NCBI RefSeq assembly: GCF_031458235.1
Contig: NZ_JAVDYB010000001.1
Location: 2,563,001-2,627,000, forward strand
Source: Catenuloplanes atrovinosus
Lineage (GTDB): Bacteria; Actinomycetota; Actinomycetes; Mycobacteriales; Micromonosporaceae
Length of the DNA: 64,000 bases
Direction: 5' to 3'
The position numbers and the translations under genes were made by a program. Below the pieces are notes generated by a model. It searched no databases, was not told the origin of the DNA, and saw nothing but the letters and a program-made list of their open reading frames with translations. This document shows positions 51,912 to 64,000 of the stretch, piece by piece; position 1 is the first letter of the stretch, and every line of letters starts with the position of its first letter.

Positions 51912-54900
51912 TCAGCTCCCTTCGATGTGATCGGATGGTGCCCACGCGACCTGGATGACGGACGCGCCGCCACGCCGGGCCACGTGGACGCCCTGCCCCG
52001 GTGGGCGGGGCACGGTCTTGACGCCGCCGAGCAGCGCACCCTCCTCGCGCGCGCCGGACAGCAGCACGCCGGGCGTGCCGAGGTCGCGCAGCCGTTGCAG
52101 CACCGGCTCGTACATGGCCCGCGAGGCGCCGCCGGTCCGGCGGGCCACGATCAGGTGCAGGCCGATGTCGCGGGACTGCGGCAGCAGCTCGGTGAGCGCG
52201 CCGAGGGGGTTGCCCTGCTGGGTGGCGATCAGGTCGTAGTCGTCGGCGACCACGAACAGTTCGGGCCCGCGCCACCAGTCCCGGCGGCGGAGCTGGTCGG
52301 CGGTGACGTCCGGGCCGGGCAGGCGGGCCCGCATCGCCCGGGCCACCTCCGCGACCGCGGAGCGCAGCGCGGGCTCGGTGCCGGCGTACGCCAGCAGGTG
52401 CCGGCCGGTGACCGCCTCGAGCAGCCCGCGCCGGTAGTCGGCGACCAGGATCGCGGCCTGCTCCTGCGGGTAGCGGGCCGCGATGCCGCGGCAGATCAGG
52501 CGCAGCAGCCCGGTCTTGCCGGACTCGGTGTCGCCGAGCACGATCAGGTGCGGGTCCGCGTCGAAGTCCAGGCGCACCGGCGCGAGATCCTGCTCGGCCA
52601 GGCCGATCGGCACGCCGCGTCCGCCGTCGGCCGGCAGCGTCTCCGCCGGGACGAGCCGGGGCAGCAGCCGCACCGGCGGCGCCGGCGGCCCGTCCCAGGA
52701 CGCGGCGACGTGGGCCACCAGCGCGGCCGGGTCGCCGTCGAGGCGGGGGAGCGCGGCCAGGTAGTGCAGCCCGTCCCGGGTGAGGCCGCGCCCGGGCCGC
52801 TCCGGCACGGCCGCGGCGGCACGACGGTCCACCGTGGAGTCGGCGGGGTCGCCGAGCCGCAGTTCGAGCTGCGTGCCGAGCATGTCGCGGATCGCGGGAC
52901 GCAGCTCCATCCAGCGGTTCGCGGAGAGCACCACGTGGATGCCGAAGCCGAGCCCGCGCGCCGCGATGGTCTGCACCGCCTCCTCCAGCGGCTCGAACTC
53001 CTGGCGCAGCGCCGCCCAGCCGTCGATGACCAGGAACACGTCGCCGAAGTCGCGGCCGTCCGGGGCCGGTGGGCGCAGGCGCCGGAACGTGGCGGCGGAG
53101 TCGATGCCGTGCTCGCGGAACAGCGCCTCGCGCTCGGTCAGCAGCCCGGTCACCTCCGCGACCACGCGGCGGCAGCGCTCCGCGTCCTGGCGGACCCCGA
53201 CGCCGCTCACGTGCGGCAGGCCGTCCAGCGCGGCGAGCGCGCCACCACCCAGGTCGATCAGGAAGAACTGCACGTCACGCGGCGTGTGGGTCAGAGCCAG
53301 AGCGGAGACGAGGGTACGCAGCAGCGTGCTCTTCCCGCTCTGCGGCGCACCGACCACCACGCAGTGACCGGCGCCGCCGGACAGGTCCACGCGCAACGCG
53401 TCACGGCGCTGCTCGAACGGCTTGTCCACGACGGCCACCGGCACGCCGAGGCCGCCGCCCGGGCTCTGCGCCAGCAGGTCGGCCAGCGACGGCGACTCGT
53501 CCAGCGGCGGCAGCCAGATCCGGTGCGCCTCCGGGCCGTGCGCGGCCAGCCGGTCCAGCAGCGCGTCCATGGTGGACACGTCGTGCGTGACGACCGGCGC
53601 GGGCCGCTCGGTCACCGCGACCGGGTCCAGGCCGAAGCGCACCGGCCGGGCCGCGCGCGGTGCCGCCGCCGAGCGGCCGGTCAGCGGGCCGGAGACGTAC
53701 GCGGCCTTGAACCGGTGCAGCGAGGTGGTGTCCGCGCGCAGGTAGCCGCCGCCGGGCTCGGCGGGCAGCTCGTACGCGTCCGGCACGCCGAGCACGGTGC
53801 GGCTCTCCGCGGCCGAGAACGTGCGCAGCCCGATCCGGTAGCTGAGGTGGCTGTCCAGCCCGCGCAGCCGGCCCTCCTCCAGCCGCTGCGACGCCAGCAG
53901 CAGGTGGATGCCGAGGCTGCGCCCGAGCCGCCCGATCATCACGAACAGCTCGGTGAACTCCGGCCGGCTGGACAGCAGCTCGGAGAACTCGTCGATGATC
54001 ACCAGCAGCGACGGCAGCGGGGTCAGGGCGGCGCCGGACGCGCGCGCGGCCTCGTAGTCCCGGACCGACGCGTAGTTCCCGGCCGCGCGCAGCAGCTCCT
54101 GACGCCGCACCAGCTCGCCGCGCAGCGCGTCACCCATCCGGTCGACCAGGCTCAGTTCCGCGGACAGGTTCGTGATCACCGCGCAGACGTGGGGCAGCCC
54201 GGTCATCCCGGTGAACGTGGCGCCGCCCTTGAAGTCCACCAGCGCCAGGTTCAGCGTCTCCGACGAGTGCGTGGCGACCAGGCCGGTGACCAGCGTGCGC
54301 AGCAGCTCGCTCTTGCCCGAGCCGGTGGCGCCGATGACCAGCCCGTGCGGGCCCATGCCGCCCTCGGCCGACTCCTTCAGGTCCAGCTCCACCGGGGTAC
54401 CGTCCGGGCCCGGCCCGAGCGGCACCCGCAACCGGTCCCGGCCGCGCCGGACCGGCAGCGCGTGCGGCCACGGCTCCACCAGCCCGAGAAGATCCGGCAA
54501 CGTGGCCGCGACCGCGCGGGTGCCGCCCGCACCGGCGGACACGGGGTGGTGCCACGGCGCCAGCGCCCGCGCGATCGCCTCCGCGCCGATCGGGCCGAGC
54601 CGATCCGGCGCGCCGACCAGCCTGGTCCGCTCGCCGCCGATGCCGAGCCGCCCGTCCGCGGCCACCACCAGCTCCAGCGCGTGCGGTGCCCGCGACGCCG
54701 AGGCGGTCACGTGCAGCACGGTCACGCCGGCCGTGTCCTCGCCCGGCAGCGGATACGCGTCCGTGTCCGACACGATCACCACGTGCGCCGCGCCGGCCGG
54801 TGCGCCGGCCCCGCGCTGGAACGGCGGCCGCCCGGTCAGGTCCGCGGCCAGCAGCTCGCCGAGCCCGGCCGCGTCCACCGCGAACATCCGCGCCGGTCCC

Positions 54901-55688
54901 GCCGCGTCGGCCCGGGACGGGTGCGCCGCGTGCGGCAGCCACTTCGCCCACCCCCACTCGGCCACCCGCTCCGGCCCGGTGCAGACCGCGATCCGCAGCT
55001 CGTCCGGGCCGTGCAGCACGGCCAGGTGCGCGACCATCGCGCGCACCAGATCCCGCGCGGCGGCCGGGTCACCGGTGACGCTCACCCGGCTGAACGCGCG
55101 CAGCGACACCGCCACCGGCAGCCCCTCCACGGTCGCGTGCGCCCGGATGAAGTGCCGCAGCGACGTCGAGCAGACCGGATCCAGGTCGGTCAGCGGCGCG
55201 GTCTGCGGTGCGCGCAGCGCCGCGGCGGCCCGCTGCGGGCCCAGCCCGACCCGGACCCGGGCGAACGCGGCGTCACCCGGCCGGCGCGACCACATCCGGG
55301 GCGTGCCGGCCAGCTGCGGCAGCGTCTCCGGGGCGGGCAGCGCCGCCGTGGTCTCCGCGCGCTGCCGGTCGGCCGCCTCCCGTACCCGGGTGCGCAGCCC
55401 GTCCAGGTAGCGCAGGTAGTCGCGCCGCTCGTCGTTGATCTGTGCGCGCTTCGCGGCACCGTGCCGGGACAGGCCCATCACCAGCACGCCCACGATGACG
55501 ATCGCGAACAGCACACCGAAGACGATCAGGCCGCTGCCGCTCGACCGGCCGATGTAGACGAACGCCATGACACCCATGCCGATCGTCATCGGCAGCATGA
55601 ACAGCAGCTGCTGCGTACCGCCGCCGCCCGCCGCCCTCGGCAGCTCCGGCGGGGCCTGCAGCACGATCTCCGTCTCGGTGGCCCGCAT
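51912..55688 (-). CDS. eccC: type VII secretion ATPase EccC
   Basis: A 1258-aa fused EccCa-EccCb motor. Two N-terminal membrane helices (about residues 28-70) are followed by three FtsK/SpoIIIE-type ATPase domains with P-loops IGATGSGKSE (about 455), VGAPQSGKST (about 783) and LGDTESGKTG (about 1056). FPxVxx-like and SLLVIIDEFSELL Walker B segments are intact in domain 1, so it is likely the active driver. Start at 55688 (MRATETEIVLQAPPE) is preferred; a longer frame would run into the divergent promoter. Leads the left arm with its candidate substrates. Confidence 0.95.
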   Translation of the reverse strand: MRATETEIVLQAPPELPRAAGGGGTQQLLFMLPMTIGMGVMAFVYIGRSSGSGLIVFGVLFAIVIVGVLVMGLSRHGAAKRAQINDERRDYLRYLDGLRTRVREAADRQRAETTAALPAPETLPQLAGTPRMWSRRPGDAAFARVRVGLGPQRAAAALRAPQTAPLTDLDPVCSTSLRHFIRAHATVEGLPVAVSLRAFSRVSVTGDPAAARDLVRAMVAHLAVLHGPDELRIAVCTGPERVAEWGWAKWLPHAAHPSRADAAGPARMFAVDAAGLGELLAADLTGRPPFQRGAGAPAGAAHVVIVSDTDAYPLPGEDTAGVTVLHVTASASRAPHALELVVAADGRLGIGGERTRLVGAPDRLGPIGAEAIARALAPWHHPVSAGAGGTRAVAATLPDLLGLVEPWPHALPVRRGRDRLRVPLGPGPDGTPVELDLKESAEGGMGPHGLVIGATGSGKSELLRTLVTGLVATHSSETLNLALVDFKGGATFTGMTGLPHVCAVITNLSAELSLVDRMGDALRGELVRRQELLRAAGNYASVRDYEAARASGAALTPLPSLLVIIDEFSELLSSRPEFTELFVMIGRLGRSLGIHLLLASQRLEEGRLRGLDSHLSYRIGLRTFSAAESRTVLGVPDAYELPAEPGGGYLRADTTSLHRFKAAYVSGPLTGRSAAAPRAARPVRFGLDPVAVTERPAPVVTHDVSTMDALLDRLAAHGPEAHRIWLPPLDESPSLADLLAQSPGGGLGVPVAVVDKPFEQRRDALRVDLSGGAGHCVVVGAPQSGKSTLLRTLVSALALTHTPRDVQFFLIDLGGGALAALDGLPHVSGVGVRQDAERCRRVVAEVTGLLTEREALFREHGIDSAATFRRLRPPAPDGRDFGDVFLVIDGWAALRQEFEPLEEAVQTIAARGLGFGIHVVLSANRWMELRPAIRDMLGTQLELRLGDPADSTVDRRAAAAVPERPGRGLTRDGLHYLAALPRLDGDPAALVAHVAASWDGPPAPPVRLLPRLVPAETLPADGGRGVPIGLAEQDLAPVRLDFDADPHLIVLGDTESGKTGLLRLICRGIAARYPQEQAAILVADYRRGLLEAVTGRHLLAYAGTEPALRSAVAEVARAMRARLPGPDVTADQLRRRDWWRGPELFVVADDYDLIATQQGNPLGALTELLPQSRDIGLHLIVARRTGGASRAMYEPVLQRLRDLGTPGVLLSGAREEGALLGGVKTVPRPPGQGVHVARRGGASVIQVAWAPSDHIEGS

Positions 55689-55740
55689 GACTCCACGGTG
55701 GGCGAGCGGACCAGCCGCCGCCATGGGCATTTCCACCGGT

Positions 55741-55790
55741 ACGGCGTGGGTAATAACGCCGTTCACCAGGGCTTACGGTATCCCTACCGT
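55741..55790. promoter_or_regulatory. two inverted repeats in the eccC divergent promoter
   Basis: ACGGCGT (55741-55747) pairs perfectly with ACGCCGT (55756-55762), and ACGGTA (55775-55780) with TACCGT (55785-55790). Both lie in the 109-bp space between eccC and the right-arm genes, so a regulator, perhaps the LuxR-type one at 61767, could control both arms. The ATG at 55798 has no clear ribosome site. Confidence 0.5.
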
Positions 55791-59750: not shown

Positions 59751-60015
59751 GGGCACCGGCTGCCTTCGGGATGGCCGGCCACTGAAAGCAAGCCGCGACC
59801 GCACCGCCGTGTCTCATCGGTCGGCGCGGGCGGTGGTCGAAGCGGCACGTTCTCGATGGTTCGATCGCTGGTGCGGCGATGTGGACGGGATGTGTTCGGC
59901 CGGGGCGGGACGTGCCGGCCGAGGGCGGGCGTGCCCATGGTCGAAAAAACCCGTGAACCGTTTTCGCGATCTGTACGGAGTAGCCGTAGAACGGGATCGG
60001 TTACGGGAGAACGCG

Positions 60016-61770
60016 ATGTGGACGCAGCGGGATCAGCTTCAGGCTTACCGATTCCTGCGTCGCCGGATCGTCTCGGCGCTGCAGTTCGGAGATGCGAACC
60101 ATCCGGTGGCACCGGGCCGTCGCACGGTGCTCGCCACGGCCTCCGGTGCCGGTGCGGCGCTGCTCGCCGCGGTCGCGGTGCTGGTGTACTCGGTGCTTCG
60201 GCCAGGTAGCGGCGTGGACTGGCGGCAGCCGGGCCAGATCGTCATCGAGAAGGAGTCCGGCGCCGGATTCGTGCTCGGCGCGGACGGGCTGCTGCATCCG
60301 GTGCTCAACAACGCGTCCGCGCGGCTCCTGGTCGGCGGTGGGCGAACGGTCACGATCCCGGCCGCGAAGCTGGCGGACGCGCCGCGCGGGCTGCCGCTGG
60401 GAATCCCGGGCGCGCCGTCCTCGATCCCGGCCCGCGACCGCCTGATCACCGGCCCGTGGGCGGTCTGTACCGGCCCCGGCCAGGAACCGGTCACGCCGAG
60501 CGACGCCGAGGGCGCCGCCGGCGGCGACGCCACCGATAACGCCGCTGAAGGCGCCGCCGGAGACGCGGCAGCCGCAGCCTCCGGAAACGACACCAGCGGT
60601 GGCGCCGGGAACGACAGCAGCGGTGGCGCCGGGAACGACAGCAGCGGTGGCGCCGGGAACGACAGCAGCGGTGGCGCCGGGAACGACACCAGCGGTGGCG
60701 CCGGGAACGACACCAGCGGTGGCGCCGGAAACGACACCAGCGGTGGCGCCGGAAAAGACACCAGCGGTGGCGCCGGGAATTCGCCCGACGGCGACGCCGG
60801 AAACGGCGCCGATGGTGATGGCGGAGTCGACGTCGACGGTGTCGCCCGGAGCGTCCGCGCCGCGGATGCGGGAACGCCGGTAACGGTGCTGGTCATCGGC
60901 GGGCAGGAGCCTCCGCCCGAGCGACTCGGTGACAGGGCGCTCATCGTCGAGGGACCCGACGGCGCCCGCCACGTGATCAGCGCGGGCCGGCGGCTGCCGC
61001 TGCGGTCGGGTGCGGCCGTGGCGCTCGGCTACGACGCGGTCGATCCGCGCCCGGTCACCCGGTCCTGGCTCGACGCCATTCCGGAGGGGCCGCCGCTGGA
61101 GCTGCTCGCCGCGGACGACCCCGGCGCGCCCGGACCGCGTGTCGGTGACGGCCGTGCCCGATCGGGCCAGGTGCTGCGCACCGAGGATGTCGGCGGCGAG
61201 GCCCGCTACTACCTGGTCACCGCGAGCGCCCTGCGCCCGATCACCGAGACCGAGGCCGCGCTGCTGGTCGGCAACCCGGCGAACCGGTCCGCGTACCCGG
61301 ACGGCGAACCTCGCGCCCTGGAGACCCCGGCGGCCGACATCGCCGTGTCCGGGCTGGTGGAGCGGCGAGCGGAGACGCCCGGATATCCGGCGCGGCTCCC
61401 GGCGCCGGTGCCACCGGATCAGCTCGCGGTCCTGGTCTGCGCGACCGCGGACGGCACCACCTGGACCGCCGCCGACCCGCCGCTGCCCGCGGGCGCCCGG
61501 GCGCTGCCCGTACCGGAGAACCAGGCGTCCGCCGCGGACGCGGTCTGGCTGCCGCCCGGCAGCGGCCTGCTGGTCACCGCGGGGGACGGGGAGCAGACGT
61601 TCCTGGTCGGCGACCGCGGGGTCCGCCACCCGATCGCCGGGGACGACGCGGCCGGAGCGCTCGGCTACGACGGCGTCGCGGCCACGATTCTGGAGGAGTC
61701 GCTGATGACGTTGCTGCCCACCGGGCCGGAGTTGTCCGTCGAGGCCGCACGGCAGGAGTCACGGCGATGA
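60016..61770 (+). CDS. eccB: type VII secretion protein EccB with repeat insertion
   Basis: A 584-aa EccB. The N-terminal WTQRDQLQAYRFLRRRIVSAL (about residues 2-22), one membrane helix (about 40-62) and the extracytoplasmic beta-rich domain (RPGQIVIEKESGAGFVLGADGLLHPVLN) are diagnostic. Eight 8-aa repeats, GND[TS]SGGA, interrupt the periplasmic domain at residues 190-253 within a longer low-complexity zone (about 160-280), making the protein longer than usual EccB. The final segment carries GVRHPI and ends with a LuxR gene overlapped by ATGA. A weak GGGA ribosome site precedes ATG 60016. Confidence 0.9.
   Translation: MWTQRDQLQAYRFLRRRIVSALQFGDANHPVAPGRRTVLATASGAGAALLAAVAVLVYSVLRPGSGVDWRQPGQIVIEKESGAGFVLGADGLLHPVLNNASARLLVGGGRTVTIPAAKLADAPRGLPLGIPGAPSSIPARDRLITGPWAVCTGPGQEPVTPSDAEGAAGGDATDNAAEGAAGDAAAAASGNDTSGGAGNDSSGGAGNDSSGGAGNDSSGGAGNDTSGGAGNDTSGGAGNDTSGGAGKDTSGGAGNSPDGDAGNGADGDGGVDVDGVARSVRAADAGTPVTVLVIGGQEPPPERLGDRALIVEGPDGARHVISAGRRLPLRSGAAVALGYDAVDPRPVTRSWLDAIPEGPPLELLAADDPGAPGPRVGDGRARSGQVLRTEDVGGEARYYLVTASALRPITETEAALLVGNPANRSAYPDGEPRALETPAADIAVSGLVERRAETPGYPARLPAPVPPDQLAVLVCATADGTTWTAADPPLPAGARALPVPENQASAADAVWLPPGSGLLVTAGDGEQTFLVGDRGVRHPIAGDDAAGALGYDGVAATILEESLMTLLPTGPELSVEAARQESRR
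60583..60774 (+). repeat. 24-bp tandem coding repeat, eight copies, inside eccB
   Basis: Eight units of exactly 24 bp (GG-A/G-AACGACA-CC/GC-AGCGGTGGCGCC) encode GND[TS]SGGA. Units 2-4 are identical, as are units 5-6, indicating recent slippage; unit eight has AAG for AAC. The reading frame is kept. Confidence 0.95.
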
Positions 61771-62405
61771 CCACCACGGTGTCCGTCATCGAGCAGCACC
61801 CGCTGTTCCGGCAGGCCCTCGCCGGCGTGATCGACGAGGTGCCGGAGCTGGTCCGCGGGCCGCTGACCGGGTCGGTCGACGAGTTCCTCGCGTACCGGGC
61901 GCCGCACGGCGTGGTGGTGCTGGACACGCAGCTGCCGGGCAGGGGCGGCGCCGGGGCGGTGCTCGCGGTCGCCGAGGCCGGGTACCGGCCGCTGGTGCTG
62001 TCCACGCAGGCGACGCGCACGGACGTGCAGGCCGCGCTGGCGGCGGGCGCGCGCGGGTTCCTGACCAAGTCGGCGGACGTGCCGGAGATCGCGGCGGCGT
62101 TGCGCCAGGTGGCGTCGGGCGGTCAGTACGTGTCCCCCACGCTGGCGGCGCGGCTGCTGCACGCGCCGGCTCCGGTGCCGGCACCGCGCACGGTGCTGAC
62201 CGAGCGGGAGCGGCAGGTGCTCGCGCTGCTGGCGCACGGCGAGCGGGACGTGGACATCGCCCGCGCACTGACGATCAGCGTCCGCACCGTACGGTCGCAC
62301 CTGGACCGGATCAGGGAGAAGACCGGGCAGCGGCGCCGCTCGGAGCTGACCCGGCTGGCGATCGGCGAGGGCCTGGTGCACCACCAGGGCCACACCGCGG
62401 CCTAG
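61767..62405 (+). CDS. LuxR/NarL-type response regulator of the secretion locus
   Basis: A 212-aa regulator: receiver domain (about 3-118) with phospho-acceptor Asp in VVVLDTQLPG (about 52) and LTKSADVP lysine, and a C-terminal LuxR helix-turn-helix (about 145-205: LTERERQVLALLAHGERDVDIA). The acidic pocket at the first strand is VIEQHPLF where DD or ED is usual, so phosphorylation may be altered. It is coupled to eccB by ATGA and could control the divergent eccC promoter. Confidence 0.88.
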   Translation: MTTTVSVIEQHPLFRQALAGVIDEVPELVRGPLTGSVDEFLAYRAPHGVVVLDTQLPGRGGAGAVLAVAEAGYRPLVLSTQATRTDVQAALAAGARGFLTKSADVPEIAAALRQVASGGQYVSPTLAARLLHAPAPVPAPRTVLTERERQVLALLAHGERDVDIARALTISVRTVRSHLDRIREKTGQRRRSELTRLAIGEGLVHHQGHTAA

Positions 62406-62480: not shown

Positions 62481-63722
62481 TCAGTGCGTCGCGGGATTCG
62501 CGGCGTTCCTGGGTACCTCGTCCGCTCGCCGGCGTGCGTGCAGCCGCGTTATGGCCTCCCGTACGGCGGCCACCTCGACCCGCTGGTGCACGCGAACCTT
62601 GCCGATGCGCTCGGGCACCGGAAGGTTCAGAACGCCCCCTCGCTGCCGGCTGACGGCGTCCATCGCGTCGATGACCAGGTCTGGCTGGATGAGCTCATGG
62701 CATACCGGCGAGCCGACGCTCCGGATGACGGCGTGGATCCGATCGCGTTCGCTCGGCGGCAGCAGGCTCAGCACGGTCGAGTACTCGGCCATCAGGGCGA
62801 TGTCGATGCCCACCGCGATCCCGTGTGGCAGCAGGCCCTGCATCTCCAGCGGCGTCGCCAGCAGGTGGCCGAGGTCGACCTGCCGGTTGAGTTGATGCTC
62901 CCGCAGGTTGGGCTGGAGATGCCGCAGCATCGAGGTGATGGACAGCCGTGTCACGGTGAGCGATGACGCGCTCTGGAACCCCGTCTCGAGCATCTCCTGG
63001 GCGGAGCGTTCGAGGTTCTCCCAGAGCGCCCCTCCGTCGATGACGGCCATCTTCATGATCTCCATGAGCCCGGCGCGGAGCGTGTCTGCCGAGCACCCTT
63101 GGATCAGTGCGAGGTCGAGGCCCACGTACAGCGGCGCGAAGTAGACGCCGACGCTGTTCTTCTTCCGGCCGCGGTTGAGTGCCCCCTTGACCCCGATGCT
63201 GGCGTCGACGTACGCGGTCGGCGTGGTCGGGATGATCGCCAGCGGCATGCCCTTCCAGACCCAGGCCGCGACGCACCTACCCAGATCGGCGACGGCGCCG
63301 CCGCCGACCACGACGACGAGGTCGCGGCGCTTCGCGTTCGCCTGTACGGCGTCGGCGAGGCGATGAAGCTCGTCCGTGCTCTTGCAGCCCTCACCGCCGT
63401 CCACGACGTACAGCCAATTGTGCACGCCCGCGTCGGTGAGTTCCTGGGCCAGCGCGCGTCCGTACTTCTCGGCGCCGGAGTCGACGATGAGGTGCTGACG
63501 CGGGGACAGTGCCGCGATATCCCCACGGCGCAGCAGGCCGGGCCGCTCGTGGATGGTGTACTGCATGCCTTCGCCGCGGTGGCGCACGCACCACTCGTAC
63601 TCGGCACCGCGGCGGAGGTGGACGCCGTCCGGCCCGCGAACGGGAGATCCGAACTGGCTCACGTGCGGGCTCGATGATCGGCGGGGCCAGGTGAGTCCCA
63701 TGATTCTCGCGCTCAGCGTCAT
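62481..63722 (-). CDS. sugar phosphate cyclase (EEVS/2-epi-valiolone-type synthase family)
   Basis: A 413-aa member of the 3-dehydroquinate-synthase-like sugar phosphate cyclases. NAD motif VVGGGAVADLG (about residues 150-160), IPTTPTAYVDASIGVKGALN (about 180-199), Zn-ligand Glu in LMEIMK, and GHLLATPLE plus PHGIAVGID for the metal histidines. The GHxxxxxLE form, lacking the second histidine of GHxxGHA, resembles EEVS-type cyclases (cyclising sedoheptulose 7-phosphate), not true dehydroquinate synthase. Start at ATG 63722 overlaps the stop of the upstream gene. It probably makes a C7 cyclitol for a natural product. Confidence 0.82.
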   Translation of the reverse strand: MTLSARIMGLTWPRRSSSPHVSQFGSPVRGPDGVHLRRGAEYEWCVRHRGEGMQYTIHERPGLLRRGDIAALSPRQHLIVDSGAEKYGRALAQELTDAGVHNWLYVVDGGEGCKSTDELHRLADAVQANAKRRDLVVVVGGGAVADLGRCVAAWVWKGMPLAIIPTTPTAYVDASIGVKGALNRGRKKNSVGVYFAPLYVGLDLALIQGCSADTLRAGLMEIMKMAVIDGGALWENLERSAQEMLETGFQSASSLTVTRLSITSMLRHLQPNLREHQLNRQVDLGHLLATPLEMQGLLPHGIAVGIDIALMAEYSTVLSLLPPSERDRIHAVIRSVGSPVCHELIQPDLVIDAMDAVSRQRGGVLNLPVPERIGKVRVHQRVEVAAVREAITRLHARRRADEVPRNAANPATH

Positions 63723-64000
63723 CGAGCGGTGGCCCAGGTCTCGAGCAGTTCGCGCATGCGCTCGCCGAGCGCGGTCGCCGCCCCGGCCTCGAACCAGCGG
63801 TCCTTGACCGAGATGCGGACCTGGAGACCCGCGTCGGACTCCGCGCCGTGCACCACGACGGTCCGGTAGCCCCAACCGTCCGACATCGGCAGCTCCGTCA
63901 TGGTCAGGCCGGGCACCGGCTCCGCGGGAAAACGCTGCTCCAGCGTGGCACCGGGGTTGAACGCCGCCGTGGGATGCGGGCTCGGCCTGCCGAACTGCTC
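63719..64000 (-). CDS. condensation-domain-like protein, C-terminal part (runs off the window)
   Basis: The last 93 codons of a gene beginning beyond the window edge. Residues FNPGATLEQRF, then PGLTMTELPMSDGW, and the final helix ALGERMRELLETWATAR, resemble the C-terminal end of NRPS condensation domains or related acyltransferases. The gene ends right after this region, so any condensation domain is terminal or stand-alone. ATGA overlap couples it to the sugar phosphate cyclase. Identification is moderate because only the tail is visible. Confidence 0.6.
   Translation of the reverse strand, partial: EQFGRPSPHPTAAFNPGATLEQRFPAEPVPGLTMTELPMSDGWGYRTVVVHGAESDAGLQVRISVKDRWFEAGAATALGERMRELLETWATAR

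Follow-up and report, generated by a model that had tools for sequence, protein, structure and literature searches.

The biosynthesis of acarbose, validamycin and natural sunscreens starts with sedoheptulose-7-phosphate (S7P) cyclases, for which to our knowledge few types of product are described. Acarbose, validamycin and cetoniacytone are C7N aminocyclitols. The VOC protein AcbO belongs to this background, as does the mycosporine-like amino acid pathway, which has an NRPS-like step. AcbO is called a 2-epimerase in PMC9200736, and PMC10057719 describes the pairing of an S7P cyclase with an ATP-grasp ligase in mycosporine pathways. The locus analyzed here has a putative S7P cyclase together with aminotransferases and a candidate epimerase, likewise found in the acarbose, validamycin and cetoniacytone clusters. 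Unlike these, it adds carrier proteins, a condensation domain, an ATP-grasp ligase and MaoC proteins to the cyclase. With the mycosporine-like pathway it shares a cyclase and an ATP-grasp ligase, but its cyclase belongs to another clade with another fingerprint, and aminotransferases, a VOC protein and MaoC proteins are added.

The window, that is the whole stretch of 64,000 nucleotides that was analyzed, corresponds to positions 2563001-2627000 of a genome made of a single contig of 8,906,892 bases. The cluster continues beyond its right end, and the coordinates below are those of the window, prolonged past 64000.

51912-55766: FtsK/SpoIIIE-type ATPase (type VII secretion), left of the cyclase
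59809-61770: EccB (type VII secretion), left of the cyclase
61767-62405: LuxR-type regulator, left of the cyclase
62481..63722, minus strand: sugar phosphate cyclase, 413 aa, ATG start at 63722, stop at 62481 (open reading frame, Pfam, tree)
63719..64000, minus strand: 3' end (last 93 codons and stop) of a free-standing condensation-domain (C) gene, the full gene reaching 65011 (430 aa)
65011-65304: carrier-protein gene (PCP), 97 aa, its TGA overlapping the ATG of the C gene
66277-66564, plus strand: ACP, motif NWDSLGHM, no Pfam match
66613-67806, plus strand: MaoC1, family match
67806-69131, plus strand: MaoC2, family match
69153-70469, plus strand: DegT aminotransferase AT1, family match
70498-71331 (L006:8498-9328), plus strand: SDR, over the cut-off of a mycofactocin-coupled model
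71366-71824, plus strand: VOC protein, family match
71821-72552, plus strand: thioesterase, family match
72549-73676 (L006:10549-11676), plus strand: DegT protein AT2, without the PLP lysine
73673-74800, plus strand: DegT protein AT3, PLP lysine kept
75014-75706, plus strand: methyltransferase
75791-76570, minus strand: SDR2
76571-77548, minus strand: E1-beta, domains common to E1_dh and transketolase kinds
77545-78519, minus strand: E1-alpha, E1_dh (PF00676), no transketolase N-terminal model
78550-79983, minus strand: ATP-grasp ligase
about 80084-81493, plus strand: nitroreductase-family gene
81497-82468, plus strand: ABC ATPase, named by eye
up to 84023, plus strand: two ABC-2 membrane genes
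84032-84763, minus strand: second thioesterase
84908-88084, plus strand: NRPS (A-T-C)
88089-88325, plus strand: PCP2
88318-89727, plus strand: adenylation enzyme A2
89703-90638, minus strand: DUF2332 protein
about 90604-91926, plus strand: ligase A3
91899-92933, minus strand: luciferase-type monooxygenase
93045-93302, minus strand: PCP3
97105-100008: glycosyltransferase genes, about 4 kb past the assumed right edge

Because the LuxR-type regulator and the type VII secretion genes lie to the left of the cyclase, we let the cluster begin with the latter. From there the cluster extends over about 31 kb to a right edge drawn by eye before the glycosyltransferase genes, and it holds free carrier proteins, adenylation/ligase enzymes, an NRPS, an ATP-grasp ligase, three DegT proteins, a VOC protein and paired MaoC proteins. 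No glycosyltransferase was found among the family-scanned cluster genes up to 92933; given those located farther right, the product could nevertheless be glycosylated. In the left flank, the EccB gene carries a 24-bp tandem repeat (60581-60779, 8.3 copies, 96% matches) that encodes a repeated GNDTSGGA-type segment.

A frame of 505 aa that reaches 64000 is an open frame, the cyclase gene itself coding for 413 aa. The preliminary description had proposed that this gene overlaps by ATGA with the end of an NRPS condensation-type gene, and the junction indeed reads GCT CGA TGA / ATG ACG CTG; a TGATG overlap joins in turn the C gene to the 97-aa carrier-protein gene. Reading on beyond 64000, as had been advised there, we found adenylation, carrier and condensation genes, which is not the picture of a lone non-NRPS acyltransferase of primary metabolism. 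The C gene is complete when read in this way and its product matches PF00668 (Condensation) at 8e-25. The protein appears to be a free-standing C domain whose likeness to solved ones is weak (best match 1.6e-11), and for this reason its donor and acceptor are not readable. In place of HHxxxDG it carries DHIACDAWS, with the second His and the Asp kept and the first His and the Gly changed; its Micromonospora chokoriensis counterpart has DHLISDAWS at this position.

Among the other enzymes, AT2 has, by alignment, a Gly at the position of the PLP lysine, both here and in the M. chokoriensis copy (L049:1885-3033), whereas the adjacent AT3 keeps the lysine. AT2 is possibly a pseudo-aminotransferase acting as partner subunit of AT3. 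The SDR scores 401 bits against a cut-off of 300 for the mycofactocin-coupled NCBIfam model. In this genome the mycofactocin maturase MftC stays below its cut-off, which is passed in 4 of 21 genomes, a set that includes this one, and the mycofactocin link was dropped for want of a maturase over the cut-off here. Adenylation-domain codes read by eye against specificity tables (a small amino acid for A2, Thr-like for the NRPS) were too weak to be used.

Scanning of genome contigs gave a sole close relative of the cyclase, 68% identical, in M. chokoriensis. The cyclase search returned 21 of 151 genomes at E<=1e-25 (best 12 candidates scored per genome), 13 of 354 genomes of the family at E<=1e-38 (best 5) and, at E<=1e-40, 1 of 394 genomes of the class, the window's own (best 4). 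Among the matches listed, a close homologue occurs only in the window genome and in M. chokoriensis (G264, same contig position as G151), the others being at most 36% identical. On plasmids, matches came from 88 records for the cyclase, 29 for MaoC2 and 77 for the C domain, and among the 40, 20 and 15 rows listed the best identities were 32%, 29% and 30%.

The M. chokoriensis cluster comprises a carrier protein, an adenylation enzyme, ATP-grasp, C, AT2, AT3, SDR, AT1, MaoC2, MaoC1, ACP, VOC, cyclase and A3 genes, in an order and orientation that differ from those of the window cluster. Besides the cyclase, the proteins best conserved between the two are the VOC protein (74% identity), MaoC2 (71%), the SDR (68%), A3 (67%) and AT1 (65%), followed by the ACP (58%), AT3 (53%), C (48%), MaoC1 (48%), AT2 (40%) and ATP-grasp (35%) proteins. 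The VOC and cyclase genes are adjacent in M. chokoriensis; the C and cyclase genes are about 8 kb apart, so that the ATGA junction is not conserved. The joint presence in this second genome of ten genes in addition to those for the cyclase and the C protein argues that their association is not due to chance, and the core association looks kept rather than accidental. With identities of only 28% between the adenylation enzymes and 35% between the ATP-grasp proteins of the two clusters, the amino-acid parts of the products may differ. No match to either thioesterase, the methyltransferase or the E1 pair was found in the 60 kb examined of M. chokoriensis, where the second SDR has no counterpart beyond a general one. 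The carrier of M. chokoriensis best matches PCP3 (47% over 73 residues), the PCP beside the C gene reaching 53% over only 30; this PCP was considered as the shared carrier and dropped, since PCP3, 28 kb away, is the better match and no full-length counterpart of PCP exists there. The M. chokoriensis cluster also has, after A3, an aspartate decarboxylase gene (PanD family, PF02261 4.7e-51, L049:12804-13259) that could supply beta-alanine and, at the opposite end, an MFS gene (3.8e-30).

One could wonder whether two clusters simply adjoin here, a C7-cyclitol cluster from the cyclase to AT3 and a peptide cluster with the NRPS, PCP2 and A2, the C and PCP proteins serving the peptide only. The NRPS and A2 (84908-89727) match just one adenylation protein of M. 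chokoriensis, at 27-28%, and this would fit such a split, as would the carrier overlapping the C gene, with its partial counterpart. On the other hand, overlaps chain the PCP, C and cyclase genes together here, and in M. chokoriensis the carrier, adenylation, ATP-grasp, C, AT2 and AT3 genes stand in one row in the same cluster as the cyclase. Furthermore the M. chokoriensis cluster includes relatives, at 67% and 47%, of A3 and PCP3, whose genes lie past the NRPS in the sequence analyzed here. We thus consider a juxtaposition of two clusters unlikely.

We propose instead a single cluster whose cyclase sets it apart. The cyclase matches the Pfam families DHQ_synthase (3.4e-23) and DHQS_C (1.5e-16). 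Ranking of PDB chains placed first 4P53, the EEVS ValA (140.5 bits, E 5.8e-40), the closest solved relative, 33% identical over 328 columns, with AcbC of acarbose as a further enzyme of this kind, then 5TPR (112.6 bits, 1.8e-31), a cyanobacterial S7P cyclase that we take to be of the EVS/DDGS type. The best DHQS reached 87 bits, and the DOIS 2D2X came eighth with 67 bits against the 140.5 of 4P53, DOIS having no row in the tree. No curated NCBIfam cut-off was reached by the cyclase among the 8 models listed, the best being aroB with 162.5 bits for a cut-off of 305, nor by its M. chokoriensis counterpart, for which 5 models were listed at E<=1e-20.

In a tree of 46 rows, the two cyclases form a pair (100/100) within a 27-row S7P-cyclase clade supported at 100/98, which also contains 5TPR; the solved proteins of the whole tree are ValA, 5TPR and two DHQS rows only, the remaining group labels coming from the tree and from motifs. 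The pair sits on a long branch (2.16), and the program gave a warning about long branches that meet L012/L016. A tree rebuilt without these two rows kept the pair in a 25-row clade at 99/99, which fixes its placement to the S7P-cyclase half only. In AU tests, a clade of the pair with DHQS was rejected (p-AU 0.009), and one with EEVS was not (p-AU 0.12), the best tree placing the pair outside EEVS. A second member of the cyclase family in the window genome falls in the DHQS clade.

The metal ligands E221, H286 and H300 and the core residues K179, N183, K188 and N189 are kept in both members of the pair, the E, H, H ligands being present in all 46 rows of the alignment. D283, before the first metal His, is as in 17/17 rows of the ValA group. 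The two proteins differ from the other groups at five columns, a fingerprint which rests on two members and could narrow with more. Three residues are found in the pair alone in place of a ValA-group consensus: T290, for P in 16/17 ValA-group and 6/6 5TPR-group rows and H in 9/9 DHQS and 7/7 other rows; I/T302, for E in 17/17 ValA-group rows, with H in five and Q in one of the six 5TPR-group rows and a mixture in DHQS; and Q360, for H in 16/17 ValA-group and T in 6/6 5TPR-group rows. P168, again restricted to the pair, replaces L (17/17 ValA-group, 6/6 5TPR-group, 8/9 DHQS), and G180, otherwise seen in 1/7 of the other rows, replaces T (17/17 ValA-group, 9/9 DHQS) or V (6/6 5TPR-group). All five columns presumably line the active site. 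Two sites that mark the classes of S7P cyclases are mentioned in PMC4426668. At D283 and Q360, taken here as these sites, both members of the pair have the Asp of EEVS but Gln instead of its His, and D and Q against A and T in 6/6 rows of the 5TPR clade. A structure prediction from a two-row alignment had a mean pLDDT of 39.2, too low for a comparison of folds.

The motif GHxxxxxLE noticed earlier is present, as GHLLATPLE, and the tree confirms that the cyclase does not cluster with dehydroquinate synthases. The label of EEVS/EVS-like cyclase has to be refined: the tree and the AU test uphold the S7P-cyclase half of the family against DHQS, but the pair makes a separate clade with altered motif columns and is not simply EEVS or EVS. 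Judged by its grouping, the protein is an S7P cyclase of a clade of its own, not a textbook EEVS. That it really has this activity is, in our judgement and not by computation, quite probable. A bolder hypothesis would be that the pair is a new functional class with re-set pocket-shaping columns, making a cyclitol unlike the known S7P-cyclase products that is then finished as an undescribed, carrier-built acyl or amino-acid conjugate; we hold this to be conceivable, with the balance somewhat against it.

The same evidence bears on a mycosporine-like pathway, in which the cyclase would form a deoxygadusol-type ring and the ATP-grasp and NRPS parts would add amino acids. Both clusters do have an ATP-grasp gene, which resembles the pairing reported in PMC10057719. 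However, the A and T of the 5TPR-type clade stand against the D and Q of the pair, whose other changes are found in 0/6 of its rows, the PDB chain that most resembles the ATP-grasp protein is an L-amino-acid ligase (5.8e-11), and the window methyltransferase is one of the genes without a match in the 60 kb of M. chokoriensis. Such a pathway appears very unlikely. That the cyclase is a second dehydroquinate synthase, or an aminodehydroquinate synthase, which supplies an aromatic or AHBA-like unit, an idea that the shared family, aroB as best NCBIfam model and the TPP genes of the cluster could inspire, is the least credible reading of all, given an aroB score far under its cut-off, a T for the second His of GHTxGHA, the AU rejection of a clade with DHQS (in a tree without aminoDHQS reference) and an alpha TPP protein of the E1_dh and not the transketolase N-terminal kind, the beta domains being common to both.

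We therefore return to a single cluster, one end of which lies in the window and which we rather favor as making a C7-aminocyclitol with an amide-linked acyl and/or amino-acid tail. From the gene content, the protein families, the joint occurrence in two genomes and the conserved metal-binding and core positions of the cyclase, we infer substrates, order of steps, carrier partners and product as follows. The cyclase would close sedoheptulose 7-phosphate, its presumed substrate, to a C7 keto-cyclitol, which the VOC protein would probably epimerize, and the SDR would adjust a hydroxyl or ketone of the ring. AT1 and AT3 would then install amino groups, the latter perhaps paired with AT2, which lacks the lysine. 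The cyclase and two DegT proteins with a PLP lysine occur together in both clusters, and amination of the ring by the latter seems likely to us, again as a matter of judgement and not of computation. In parallel, A3 could charge the free ACP with a short carboxylic acid, and the MaoC1/MaoC2 pair would hydrate or dehydrate the acyl group bound there, while an adenylation enzyme could attach an amino acid to one of the free peptidyl carriers. Amide bonds to the amine or amines would finally be made by the free condensation protein and the ATP-grasp ligase. The amino-acid or peptide conjugate of an aminocyclitol suggested at the outset is plausible, and an acyl tail in place of a peptidyl one equally so. 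We also considered a crotonyl tail like that of COTC; titles and the first part of abstracts gave no account of its biosynthesis. They gave no description of the present cluster either, which apparently is undescribed, its novelty lying in the cyclase clade and in this combination of genes. This clade of cyclases with changed columns, which in two genera accompanies genes for amide formation and for acyl carriers, is where both a ring and an aminocyclitol conjugate of a new type could be sought.

Part of this cluster appears to travel on its own. Using MaoC2 as a handle, we obtained matches at E<=1e-20 in 7 of 300 genomes, of which 3 had a close one, and, at E<=1e-60, in 2 of 394 and 4 of 297 genomes, these sets overlapping. 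MaoC2 proteins at least 66% identical are present in the window, M. chokoriensis, G168, G568, G834 and G868; that of G946 is a fragment at a contig end. The order ACP-A3-MaoC1-MaoC2 is found in G168 (L058/L059), G568 (L061-L063), G834 (L082/L083) and G868 (L080), which suggests a portable maker of short acyl-ACP. In G168, the module is followed by AT1 (66%), a gene of the Inos-1-P_synth family (6.6e-22) and dehydrogenases, and the cyclase was not found within the 39.4 kb examined. This proximity of AT1 and the module to a gene of the myo-inositol-1-phosphate-synthase family ties AT1 to cyclitols. The module itself is not so tied, because in three of the six genomes with examined context no cyclitol gene is near: G568 (60 kb), G868 (40 kb) and G834 (21.5 kb) gave no match to the cyclase, to the inositol-phosphate-synthase gene of G168 or to AT1. 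Its occurrence next to two cyclitol makers that are not related to each other suggests that aminocyclitols may be dressed in a common manner. In the second half of MaoC2, five of six proteins conserve the D-x4-H pattern, G168 having R, and MaoC1 has R or W at the position of this His in 6/6. Since one relative has a MaoC2 without the His, dehydratase activity is uncertain. Remoter homologues of A3 adjoin an ACP and an SDR in Deinococcus (as annotated) and Nonomuraea (by similarity).

A parallel can be drawn with a plasmid of Streptomyces sp. NBC_01456 (L067/L071), where an adenylation gene lies between a cyclase-like gene and a condensation-domain gene that are some 4.5 kb apart. Unlike the window enzyme, this cyclase falls outside the S7P clade and has the second His. 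When 26 queries from the window cluster, the thioesterase and AT2 being out of frame, were compared with this plasmid, only the two SDRs, the cyclase, E1-alpha and adenylation proteins matched, at no more than 33% identity, and the window C domain had no match in the plasmid cluster. The same row also holds NDP-sugar synthase, TPP-enzyme, BadF-type ATPase and inositol-monophosphatase-family genes, and represents a second neighborhood combining a cyclase with a C domain.
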